Assembly: GCA_013607775.1 (NCBI GenBank)
Contig: VCAW01000033.1
Location: 1-35,202, forward strand
DNA: 35,202 nucleotides
Reading direction: 5' to 3'
DNA from: Campylobacterota bacterium
GTDB lineage: Bacteria; Campylobacterota; Campylobacteria; Campylobacterales; Sulfurovaceae
The notes beneath the pieces are model-generated. The model was given only the letters and a program-made list of their open reading frames with translations. It made no database searches and had not been told where the DNA came from. Position numbers and translations under genes: made by a program. Each line of letters begins with the position of its first letter. Positions within the stretch are counted from its first letter, which is position 1. This document shows, piece by piece, positions 8,334-26,652 of the stretch.

Positions 8334-10187
8334 ATGACAACAAAAACACTAAGCCTCGTAGCGGCTTCTCTACTTTTAACACAGGCAACTTTCGCAGACA
8401 CAACACTTGAAGACATTACTGTTGTATCGGCAACAAGAACGACACAAAACCTTCAAAATGTTACATCAAATGTAGATGTCATTACCGCACAAGACATTGA
8501 AGACAGAGGGTACACTACAGTTACTCAGGCACTTAACTCACTTCCAGGTGTCACATTTACACAAAATGGTGGACTTGGAACATCTACCTCTGTAAATCTA
8601 AGAGGTATGGACTCAAGAAGTACACTCGTACTCATCGATGAGGTACGTTATAACGACATTACAGGTACTTCAGGAGCACCTTTTGCGCACCTAATGGTGG
8701 AAGACATAGCACAAATCGAAGTGGTTAAAGGTGCTCAGTCAGGTATCTGGGGTGCTGACGCTGCAGCTGGTGTGATAAACATCATCACTAAAAAACCTGA
8801 GAATAGTGTACATGGTTCTGCACATATCGAAGGTGGAAGCTTTAACACGAAAAAGTATGGGGCAACACTCTCAACAAAAACAGAGAACTATACACTCAAA
8901 GTGAGTCACAATGTTGTAGATACAGACAGCTTTACAGCACAAGCTCCAAAAGGTGAAAATATTGACGATTTTGAAGATGATGGCTACAAAAACCAAACAA
9001 CCAACGTACAACTAGGACTCAACATCAACGAAAGCAACAAAGTTGACCTAGCTTACACATACATCGATGCAGACAGCCAGTATGACACATACCAAAATCC
9101 AAATGGTATCGCCAACAGTACAACAAAAGACTCTTTTGCTTCTGTAAACTTCAACCATATAGACAGCTTTAACGAACTGAATGTCTATGCAAAACGTTCT
9201 AAGTTTGAAAGAGAGTTTATCGATACTTTTTCTACTTCACCATTTGACGGTCAGGTAGATGAATACGGTATCAACTCTAAAATCCCTTATGGCACAGAAG
9301 ATTTTGTCCTTGTAGGTGCAGACTACAAGAAATTTGAGCACAAAAACAGCATCAACAAAAACTTTAACAACAAAGGTATCTTTGTAACCAATAACAACAC
9401 CTTTAAAGGTTTTATGGGTGGGACTACTATCTTAACAGAGTCATTGCGTTATGACAGCTACTCAACCTTTGACAATGAAGTCACAGGGAAGATAGGTCTT
9501 AAGCACATTCATGAAAACATTGAAGGTCTTGTGACTTCACTTAACTATGGTACTGCATACACTGTACCGACACTTTACCAACTCCACGCACCAGGTTCAA
9601 CATACAGTGGTGTTTACTACCCTATTGGTAATGAAAACCTTAACCCAGAGACTACAAAATCATTTGATGTGACAATAGCCTATAAAGATTTCTCAGTGAC
9701 GTACTTTAGCAACAAAATAGACAACCTCATCGAATACACCAATGGATATAATAACGTAGAGGGTACGTCTAAGATAGATGGTATCGAAGTTGCTTATTCA
9801 AAAGAAATCATTGAGAACCTTCAACTTAGTATGAACTATACTAACCTCTTTACTGCAGAAGACAAAGATGGGAACACACTTAAAAGAAGAGCTATTGAGA
9901 CATTTAAAGCTGCTGTAGATTACTATGGTGTTGAAAGTCTTCATGTTGGTGCAGACCTTGAGTACGTAGGAAGCAGAACAGACATCATCTTTAACCCAGA
10001 CTACACAACATCTGATGTAGAAACTGGTAAATACACTGTGATTAATCTGACTGCTGATTACCAAGTGACAAAAGCATTCCAAGTTTATGGTAAAATTGTT
10101 AATCTTACAGATGAAGAGTACCAAACAGTCTATGGTTATGCAACATCTCCAAGAGCATTTTATGCAGGTGTAAGAGCTAAGTTTTAA
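8334..10187 (+). CDS. btuB: TonB-dependent outer-membrane receptor, BtuB-like (probable vitamin B12)
   Basis: Signal peptide MTTKTLSLVAASLLLTQATFAD; plug domain ITVVSATRTTQNLQNVTSNVDVITAQDIED; C-terminal YGYATSPRAFYAGVRAKF; followed by btuFDC. Internal ATG preferred over track start 8289. Confidence 0.88.
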   Translation: MTTKTLSLVAASLLLTQATFADTTLEDITVVSATRTTQNLQNVTSNVDVITAQDIEDRGYTTVTQALNSLPGVTFTQNGGLGTSTSVNLRGMDSRSTLVLIDEVRYNDITGTSGAPFAHLMVEDIAQIEVVKGAQSGIWGADAAAGVINIITKKPENSVHGSAHIEGGSFNTKKYGATLSTKTENYTLKVSHNVVDTDSFTAQAPKGENIDDFEDDGYKNQTTNVQLGLNINESNKVDLAYTYIDADSQYDTYQNPNGIANSTTKDSFASVNFNHIDSFNELNVYAKRSKFEREFIDTFSTSPFDGQVDEYGINSKIPYGTEDFVLVGADYKKFEHKNSINKNFNNKGIFVTNNNTFKGFMGGTTILTESLRYDSYSTFDNEVTGKIGLKHIHENIEGLVTSLNYGTAYTVPTLYQLHAPGSTYSGVYYPIGNENLNPETTKSFDVTIAYKDFSVTYFSNKIDNLIEYTNGYNNVEGTSKIDGIEVAYSKEIIENLQLSMNYTNLFTAEDKDGNTLKRRAIETFKAAVDYYGVESLHVGADLEYVGSRTDIIFNPDYTTSDVETGKYTVINLTADYQVTKAFQVYGKIVNLTDEEYQTVYGYATSPRAFYAGVRAKF

Positions 10188-10227
10188 TTATTTAATTGTA
10201 AAGTAACTGCCTCATTATTTTAATCGT

Positions 10228-10348
10228 GGCGTTGTTTTCCTCTTACTTTTCTAAAAAAGTAAGCAAAAGTCGTCGTGGCTCTCGAAACGTTACGTATTTT
10301 TTGCAAGGATGCAAAAAATACTACTTACAAGGACGTTCGCTACGACAG
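10228..10348. repeat. structured interspersed element, copy A
   Basis: GGCGTTGTTT...AGCAAAA...CTCTCGAA...CAAGGACGTTCG...GACAG with nested stems; homologous blocks at 25675-25773. Confidence 0.7.
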
Positions 10349-10368
10349 TTATCCATATAAGGAAGAGC

Positions 10369-11190
10369 ATGAAAATTATACTGTTTCTATTTCTTACACT
10401 ATATGCTTACTCACAAGAACGCATAGTCTCCCTCTCCCCTGCTATCAACGAGATAGTCTTTTCTCTTGGCTCTGGCGATGAAGTAGTGGGGAATACACAG
10501 TATTGTACCTACCCCAAAGCTTCACAGTCTGTGCCTAAAGTAGGTGGCTATTTTTCTCCTAGTTTGGAGAAGATACTTGCCCTAAAACCAAGCATTGTCA
10601 TCATGCAACCTAACAATACCAAACTTGCACAAAAGCTAAAAAAACTGGTCATCAAAACAAAAACCATACCCATAGACAGACTCCCACATATTCAAAAAGC
10701 TATTACAGAGTTGGGAATCCTACTCCATAAAGAGAATCAAGCCAAAGGTATTGTGAAGAGTATCAATCATGCATTAGATGACATCAAAGATATTACTAAA
10801 GATAAAAAAATTCTCATAGTTATAGGGCATAACACTTCTTTGGTCAAGCAAATATTTGTAGTGGGGCAAAATCTCTACCTTGATGACATCATCAATGCAT
10901 CAGGCAATACCAATGCCTTGCAGTCCAATCGTAAAGAGCAACCCATCCTTAACCAAGAGAACATCATCGCTACTAATCCTGACATTGTCATCCTCTTAGC
11001 ACACTCCATGCACCAAAGAGGGCTTAGTGAGTATGACTTAAAAGAGCCATGGAGAGAGCTACCCATCAGTGCAGGAAAAACGAATGATATTTACATCATA
11101 GACAAAGAGTATTCAGGCATACCAAGTGACAGACTGGTACTTTTTTTACAAGACTTTAAAAAGATTTTAGAACATGCTTCAAATAAATAA
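10369..11190 (+). CDS. btuF: cobalamin ABC transporter periplasmic binding protein
   Basis: ERIVSLSPAINEIVFSLGSGDEVVGNTQYCTYPKASQSVPKVGGYFSPSLEKILALKPSIVI; signal peptide from ATG 10369 (AAGGAAGAG upstream). Confidence 0.88.
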   Translation: MKIILFLFLTLYAYSQERIVSLSPAINEIVFSLGSGDEVVGNTQYCTYPKASQSVPKVGGYFSPSLEKILALKPSIVIMQPNNTKLAQKLKKLVIKTKTIPIDRLPHIQKAITELGILLHKENQAKGIVKSINHALDDIKDITKDKKILIVIGHNTSLVKQIFVVGQNLYLDDIINASGNTNALQSNRKEQPILNQENIIATNPDIVILLAHSMHQRGLSEYDLKEPWRELPISAGKTNDIYIIDKEYSGIPSDRLVLFLQDFKKILEHASNK

Positions 11191-25612: not shown

Positions 25613-25674
25613 ATAGGCATCCTTATTTCTACTATTTATACATCATTCTATAATATCCGAATTATGCATATTGA

Positions 25675-25773
25675 GGCGTTGTTTCTCTCGTCATTTTTTT
25701 TAGAAAAAAACGAAGCAAAAAAAGCGTCTCTCCTCTCGAATCGCTTCGCTTTCAAGGTCGTTCGGAGAGACAG
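25675..25773. repeat. structured interspersed element, copy B
   Basis: GGCGTTGTTT...AGCAAAA...GTCTCTCC..CTCGAA..CAAGGTCGTTCGGAGAGACAG. Confidence 0.7.
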
Positions 25774-25775
25774 GG

Positions 25776-25814
25776 CACGGAAGCGTGATTTAATGGAGAC
25801 ACGCTTCGCGTGCT
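25776..25814. other. long hairpin GCACGGAAGCGTG...CACGCTTCGCGTGC
   Basis: About 13-bp stem with one bulge, adjacent to the purU stop. Confidence 0.5.
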
Positions 25815-25815
25815 A

Positions 25816-26652
25816 TTAAAATATAACGGTCTTATTCCCATTCACAAAGACTCTGTCGTTGAGTACAAGTGCTAAGGCACGGGAAAGCACTATCTTCTCA
25901 CCATCACGTCCTGCACGTTGCATATCTTGCCAACTGAGTCTATGTGTCACAGGAATGACATCTTGCGCGATAATCGGCCCTTCGTCAAGGTCATCAGTTA
26001 CATAGTGTGCCGTAGCACCTATAATCTTCACCCCTCTCTCAAAAGCTTGTTTATAAGGATTTGCTCCTATAAATGCAGGGAGGAAAGAGTGGTGAATGTT
26101 GATGATTTTATGTGCATAAGCTTTAACAAAAGTAGAAGTCAAAATACGCATATATTTGGCAAGAACAATGTAGTCAAATTCATATTTGTCTATTTGAGTC
26201 ATCACTTTTTCTTCATGTGCTTCTCGACTAAGGTTATCTGCTGAAATATAAATAAAAGGGATATCAAAACGCTCTACAAGTTCTTTAAGTGTTTCACGGT
26301 TACCTATAACACACTGTATCTGGGCACCCAGTTCACCATCTGCATGACGTACAAGTATGTCACCTAAAGCATGAGACTCTTTGGTTACCATGAGGATGAT
26401 TTTTTTATCTTTTGGTTCGATGACTCTTATATGTGCATCTGCAGGTACAACCGTACGTAGTTCATCTTCAAGCTCTTGTATATCAAAGAGCCCTGTGACA
26501 ATCGTACGCATGAAAAAACGACCATGTTCTTTATCTACAAATTCACGGTTGTTGTCTATGTTTAATCCTCTGTCATAAAAGACTTTAGAAATTTTATAGA
26601 CCAGCCCCTTTGCATCTTCACAGTCTATGAGTACTCTTGCACGTTTTTCCAT
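25816..26652 (-). CDS. purU: formyltetrahydrofolate deformylase
   Basis: ACT-like N-terminus plus IINIHHSFLPAFIGANPYKQAFERGVKIIGATAHYVTDDLDEGPII. Confidence 0.93.
   Translation of the reverse strand: MEKRARVLIDCEDAKGLVYKISKVFYDRGLNIDNNREFVDKEHGRFFMRTIVTGLFDIQELEDELRTVVPADAHIRVIEPKDKKIILMVTKESHALGDILVRHADGELGAQIQCVIGNRETLKELVERFDIPFIYISADNLSREAHEEKVMTQIDKYEFDYIVLAKYMRILTSTFVKAYAHKIINIHHSFLPAFIGANPYKQAFERGVKIIGATAHYVTDDLDEGPIIAQDVIPVTHRLSWQDMQRAGRDGEKIVLSRALALVLNDRVFVNGNKTVIF

Follow-up and report, generated by a model that had tools for sequence, protein, structure and literature searches.

A structured, interspersed palindromic repeat family with a covarying stem in Sulfurovum and its relatives

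Two copies of a structured element in one contig

The window, the whole stretch of 35,202 nucleotides that was analysed (contig VCAW01000033.1 of assembly GCA_013607775.1, Sulfurovaceae), contains two copies, A and B, of a folded repeat lying between genes. Copy A fills the spacer between the stop codon of a TonB-dependent receptor gene and the btuF start codon; the product of this downstream gene has the Peripla_BP_2 domain expected of BtuF, in agreement with the position upstream of btuF given in a preliminary description of the locus. Copy B separates two minus-strand genes: its left flank is the start codon of a SpoU-methylase gene (ends 25612), and its right flank is the purU stop codon at 25816-25818. 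The features of the two copies are as follows.

Copy A
about 10188..10368, + strand: whole element, its extent taken from the flanks (empty orthologous site, end profile)
10228..10238, + strand: conserved left block GGCGTTGTTTT
10242..10263, + strand: hairpin 1, type II, A/T-rich, 9 bp with loop CTAA; arms CTTACTTTT (10242-10250) and AAAAGTAAG (10255-10263)
10264..10271, + strand: linker CAAAAGTC
10272..10279, + strand: 5' arm of the P2 stem, GTCGTGGC
10280..10284, + strand: TCT, one side of the 3x3 internal loop, then CG of the inner 2-bp helix (by covariation)
10294..10321, + strand: extra apical hairpin GTATTTTTTGC/GCAAAAAATAC, arms 10294-10304 and 10311-10321
10334..10338, + strand: CG of the inner helix, then TTC of the internal loop
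10339..10346, + strand: 3' arm of the P2 stem, GCTACGAC

Copy B
25613..25815, + strand: whole inserted segment, delimited by the empty junction TAATG in six genomes
25665..25795, + strand: covariance-model match (119 bits, E 9.1e-25)
25689..25714, + strand: hairpin 1, type I, with the mid-stem A.C mismatch of the family
25726..25733, + strand: 5' arm of the P2 stem, GTCTCTCC
25764..25771, + strand: 3' arm of the P2 stem, GGAGAGAC
25776..25787, + strand: right-hand hairpin HP3, CACGG-AA-GCGTG

All blocks and coordinates that the preliminary description gave for A and B are present in the sequence exactly as placed, four P2 positions do differ on both arms between the copies with pairing kept, and the inner GTATTTTTTGC/GCAAAAAATAC stem is found in A and not in B. 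The intervals were correctly placed and too short: empty sites show that the real elements reach over about 10188-10368 (A) and 25613-25815 (B). The right terminus of copy A, AAGGAAGAGC, is the right-end motif of the family and also the likely ribosome-binding site of btuF. The CGTC-like tag of this copy consists of the final linker base and the first three bases of the P2 stem, and its inner helix was assigned from the covariation of the second base of the CG with the C of the opposite CG. Its P2 stem holds one G.T pair, HP3 is missing, and the extra apical hairpin occupies the place of a short GC-nnn-GC hairpin in other copies; the same apical extension is present at locus L023. The TAATG junction that matches the site of copy B was found in G008, G061, G045, G006, G065, and G079. 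Past the right end of copy B (window 25800-25813) there is a second small palindrome, CACGCTTCGCGTG, which also occurs in G013 and in none of the other filled junctions examined.

A covariance model whose seed includes copy B and excludes copy A found A at 1.4e-13 and B at 9.1e-25, two weaker matches on the − strand that overlap A and B, and no third copy in the window. The + strand of copy A folds better as RNA than all 200 dinucleotide shuffles (z −4.4; 0/200 as good), while copy B folds no better than its shuffles (z −0.05 on the + strand, −1.5 on the − strand). Since copy B alone has no excess of folding energy, the case for the element depends on comparison between copies.

Anatomy of the repeat unit

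The anatomy was derived from 155 parsed Sulfurovum copies. The element is about 160 bases long and occurs in dozens of copies between genes. On the + strand it consists of a T-rich left end, TTTCC, about 14 nt, G(T/A)GGCGTTGTTT, an A/T-rich hairpin 1, an A-run linker, the P2 core hairpin, HP3, and a purine-rich GATTNATGGGAAGAG end. The sequence [T/G]CGTC leads into P2, with GTC opening the 8-bp stem. P2 is composed of this freely variable stem, a conserved 3x3 internal loop and a 2-bp CG helix, and its interior reads TCT, CG, AATC, GC-nnn-GC, TTTCAAGG[G/T], CG, TTC, followed by the 3' arm (P2'); the strings AATCGC and GCTTTCAAGG flank a variable apical hairpin. HP3 (CACAC/GTGTG and variants) begins a few bases after P2'. 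Sequence information fades about 35 nt before the model start, at a point where the stop codons on the left-hand side are concentrated, and about 4 nt beyond its end. The core strings are conserved across families of the order, with P2 stems of different sequence; other genera have various long hairpins at the apical position, and copies in the other family can carry CGGCC in place of CGTC.

Distribution of the family

Matches to a covariance model built from 16 copies (R1; copy B among them, copy A left out) were found in 68 of 78 Sulfurovum genomes at E<=0.001, and in 54 of these the match was better than 1e-10. Copy numbers reach at least 27 per genome (27 copies in G020), counts that may be too low, as 44 candidates were scored in each genome. 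Besides A and B, the genome of the window (G000) carries six or more additional copies. The element is absent from several complete genomes of the genus. A separate pattern search detected copies in 13 of 24 same-genus genomes, in addition to G000, and in 0 of 16 genomes of other families. The element is also present in the Sulfurovum MAG records L075, L106, and L111.

In a wider scan, two sister genera (g21, g22) gave strong matches and a third (g20) gave weaker matches. A model rebuilt with diverged copies (R2), for which the scores of seed genomes are partly circular and G265, G145, G269, and G305 lie outside the seed, found at least nine copies each in G265, G341, and G362 of genus g72, which belongs to another family of the order. 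None of 39 non-Sulfurovum genomes of mixed phyla had a match, the sole match among the 40 genomes being in the Sulfurovum-like G572, and a loose-pattern scan over a broad set of genomes returned mostly chance matches outside Sulfurovum. From these comparisons the family looks specific to one order, with diverged relatives in three sister genera and one other family.

Insertion into gene junctions

Both sites in the window have empty counterparts, which identifies A and B as insertions. At the purU/SpoU-methylase junction, the stop and start codons of empty species overlap or touch (TAATG, TAAATG, TAATATG). Among 30 species, ten have the element or a remnant oriented as in copy B (a decayed one in G021, one truncated at a contig end in G074) and three have it in the opposite orientation. 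The spacer between the TonB receptor gene and btuF is empty in G008, with 24 nt between stop codon and ATG; in G068 it holds an intact copy without the inner insert, and in G000 it holds copy A, extra stem included.

Other repeats also occupy the two sites. The purU/SpoU-methylase junction is a hotspot where other Sulfurovum species hold unrelated palindromes (L214, L219, L233, L235), including GTAG-type repeats (GTAGGGTGCGTTTGCCAACGCACC) and a GGACGCAAAATGAGC repeat, and GTAG-type palindromes occupy the spacer upstream of btuF in species without the element there (L419, L411, L413, L416, L417).

Elements mostly reside just behind the 3' ends of genes, in either orientation relative to transcription (61 >E>, 33 >E<, 32 <E<, and 3 divergent). 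The element ends show a weak TTTCC / GGGAA relation. No flank repeat beyond that of permuted pairings, as expected of a target-site duplication, was detected in 151 copies, a search that degraded duplications in old copies could escape. No autonomous element sharing terminal repeats was recognised.

Compensatory changes in the P2 stem

The 8-bp P2 stem occurs in 67 distinct arm combinations among the 155 copies. Its pairs are Watson-Crick in 97% of cases as compared to 62% with shuffled arms (3.3% of 1240 pairs are non-Watson-Crick), figures that lean slightly towards pairing because arms were located by sequence anchors, with the better-pairing 3' anchor taken where several were possible, and copies with fewer than 6 of 8 P2 pairs were dropped as misparsed. 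An unsupervised mutual information analysis in a fixed frame ranked the P2 pairs first and added the inner pairs 15-36 (GC 97, AT 35) and 20-26 (GC 124, AT 6). In a tree-aware test in the manner of R-scape, in which Fitch changes were re-dealt on the tree in 200 simulations, five pairs exceeded every null value: four P2 pairs and the inner pair 15-36. One more P2 pair reached E 0.08 and the remaining pairs were not significant. The supported inner pair 15-36 is absent from the preliminary description. Outside P2, the closing pair of hairpin 1 switches between C-G (106) and T-A (17), and HP3 occurs in several paired forms. Covariation beyond phylogeny is present, and folded DNA would yield the same signal as structured RNA.

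Where several species carry a copy at one gene junction, their P2 stems differ in sequence and yet pair, as seen at nine loci behind a gene ending LLKLLARKKR, where the element sits at a near-constant 32-35 nt from the stop codon. These same-site copies are probably orthologous, judging from their flanking genes, the alternative being repeated insertion at one junction. Template-switch correction is known for imperfect inverted repeats, and few wobble or mismatch intermediates are seen in P2, as would be expected if the matched changes were a mutational artefact of such quasi-palindrome correction, or of gene conversion between copies, with no selection. We consider this reading highly improbable. 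Copies within a genome share stems no more often than copies from different genomes (7.0% versus 6.3%, permutation p 0.35), so they are not being homogenised by conversion. In 123 of 127 type-I copies the A.C mismatch persists in hairpin 1, a longer inverted repeat next to P2, so that no general palindrome-perfecting process operates here, and the core loops are kept across families. The matched stems at shared sites, the lack of homogenisation, the retained A.C and the conservation of the core strings between families point to selection on P2 for its fold.

Comparison with known repeats and search for a mobilising enzyme

CGTC repeats are described as short palindromes with an 8-9 bp stem, a 4-5 nt loop and a CCA tail and with no dedicated transposase, and repeats of the CGTC and of the GTAG type are both reported from Sulfurovum NBC37-1 (Di Nocera et al. 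2013, PMC3733652). As with those repeats, most of our stems open with CGTC, some followed by AT, and the elements are intergenic and without a dedicated transposase. Unlike them, the element has a loop of about 30 nt with conserved internal structure, and hairpin 1 and HP3 are part of the unit. The Sulfurovum copies mostly start the stem with CGTC or CGTT and in some cases with CGAC or CATC; the pair after GTC is GC in 67, AT in 41, TA in 21, and CG in 2, making AT a minority; the structured loop of about 30 nt is present in 147 of 155 copies; and the tail is not CCA. The element thus departs from the stem, loop and tail given for CGTC repeats, a comparison made with their definition in the text of PMC3733652 and compatible with partial overlap with its Sulfurovum consensus. 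Canonical CGTC REPs searched by pattern in the presumed NBC37-1 genome gave matches that do not look palindromic.

In REPINs the conserved ends enclose a paired spacer with compensatory changes (PMC3116915), and E. coli REPs retain required stem mismatches (PMC8266576). Our element resembles GTAG REPs and REPINs in being an interspersed structured unit with conserved bases, a compensated paired part and conserved stem mismatches (PMC3116915, PMC8266576). It differs in that its consensus has no GTAG, several copy-rich genomes have no Y1 transposase, and the variable helix is outside the conserved core and not between two conserved ends. The BOX repeats of Streptococcus pneumoniae have boxA/B/C modules and share terminal inverted repeats with an IS element (PMC3049150). 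Like BOX and RUP, the element is small, interspersed and strongly folded, with uncertain function and a low insertion rate (PMC3049150); unlike them, it has no convincing terminal repeat or target duplication, and its signature is the covarying stem. MITEs offer a further parallel in the interspersed insertions with identifiable empty sites (purU/SpoU, TonB receptor/btuF), from which the element is set apart by the lack of a detectable target-site duplication in the 151 copies. We found no description of the whole element in a literature search, although the Sulfurovum CGTC consensus of PMC3733652 may overlap with it in part.

Mobilisation by a RAYT/Y1 transposase was rejected: PF01797 counts and copy number are uncorrelated across 78 genomes (Spearman 0.03), copies occur without Y1 in G020 (27 copies), G062, G064, G003, and G091-G093, and G087 has 31 Y1 genes and no element. 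IS110/bridge-RNA mobilisation was likewise rejected, as PF02371 is missing from most copy-rich genomes. Copies also do not appear to be the two ends of one transposon, since neighbours 0.9-3 kb apart flank seemingly ordinary host genes. Copies crowd one region in G341, G362, and G265 (at least nine copies each); an integron-like cassette array was rejected for them on the one stretch with ORFs listed (L371, G362), which has ordinary genes.

RNA, terminator and mobile-element readings

The preliminary description left the choice between an ncRNA class and a structured mobile element. Insertions, empty sites and the occurrence of both orientations at one junction fit the mobile element better, and the ncRNA class fits less well with the lack of a fixed orientation relative to transcription and a strand-asymmetry test for RNA that was not significant. 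A structured RNA that acts in cis or trans in the 3' UTR or intercistronic part of transcripts, for instance a hairpin bound by a dedicated protein and serving in processing, stability or regulation, would account for conserved loop strings next to covarying helices, for the location after stop codons, and for same-site copies that stay paired. The two indications of a strand disagree. The A.C that hairpin 1 keeps on the + strand becomes a G.U when the − strand folds, which favours the − strand as the folded one, yet among co-directional genes, where orientation is mixed, the + strand is transcribed more often (61:32, p 0.003). Wobbles in P2 are rare, which in our judgement is unusual for a fast-covarying RNA, and over distinct alleles they show no significant asymmetry (11 G.T versus 16 A.C, p 0.44); an apparent strand bias of wobbles in raw copies, considered as proof of RNA, disappeared on counting distinct alleles. 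Promoter-like sites at A or B showed no clear excess over shuffles. Among 4227 Rfam covariance models, none reached its gathering score over the window and none had a match at E<=1 over 10150-10400. On balance we consider an RNA class unlikely.

It is very unlikely that the copies are repeated ordinary bidirectional terminators. Their position between convergent genes and after stop codons, and a T-run after the P2 stem on the − strand, are what such terminators would show. However, a terminator has no need of conserved loop sequence, and an insertion would be polar at the purU/SpoU-methylase junction, where the two genes overlap as TAATG when the site is empty. A consensus scan, which takes loops of 3-8 nt and is blind to P2, found no terminator-like site at A or B.

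The elements insert into gene junctions, their P2 stems covary strongly, and their core strings are conserved across families of the order. We therefore favour, with a probability of about 0.62, the reading of A and B as members of an undescribed interspersed palindromic family of the REP/REPIN/MITE kind that is selected for its fold and whose folded core is recognised by a putative protein. With copies in 68 of 78 genus genomes, five pairs above the tree-aware null and no Rfam match, none of the three refuting outcomes named in the preliminary description occurred, and the original observation is confirmed as real and far stronger than two copies could show. As judged by sequence comparison, the family appears real, well supported and undescribed, with a covariation record that is unusually clean among structured interspersed palindromic repeats.

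Under the favoured reading as a fold-selected palindromic family, the folded core recognised by the putative protein would be either single-stranded DNA or RNA. The protein may read the unpaired core bases and require P2 only as a helix, so that the sequence of P2 may drift if both arms change. Rare transposition events, with no visible duplication of the target, would spread the elements. The purine-rich, Shine-Dalgarno-like ends, read outward, may let the downstream gene be translated, and elements may persist at the 3' ends of genes because both ends carry such a sequence. Well-paired copies at seemingly old orthologous sites would exceed the needs of a purely selfish element, which leaves room for a host function, although any such function is dispensable, as several complete genomes have no copy. 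More speculative, and on the doubtful side, is the idea of an order-specific class of folded nucleic acid with its own putative recognition protein, kept by copy-by-copy selection at gene 3' ends of Sulfurovum and its relatives, with helix sequence free and pairing enforced; this would be a host-used RNA or single-stranded DNA element unlike REP, BOX or terminators.

The family offers a very clear natural case of a bacterial repeat helix that has been rewritten many times with pairing kept, even at the same junctions across species. It makes testable the old question of whether such repeats are no more than selfish DNA, read as folded single strands, or have a role for the host within transcripts. 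The covariance model annotates dozens of Sulfurovum intergenic spacers, and the anatomy of core strings, inner helix and variable stem predicts what the putative binding protein should read.

Compound arrangements of the element

Several copies in genus g21 (L346, L352-L359) are nested in another palindrome, GTCATTGCGAACGCAAGTAATCTA...TAGATTGCTTCG...CTCGCAATGAC, which is similar to the classic CGTC type. Genus g72 (L369-L371) has core hairpins as head-to-head dimers in which the two P2 stems are of different kinds (GTCGTT.. and GGCCTT..). Tail-to-tail pairs of elements at the same gene junction were observed in six records (L126, L178, L197, L239, L299, L309), where one element has a near-constant GACACTAC stem and the other has variable stems.
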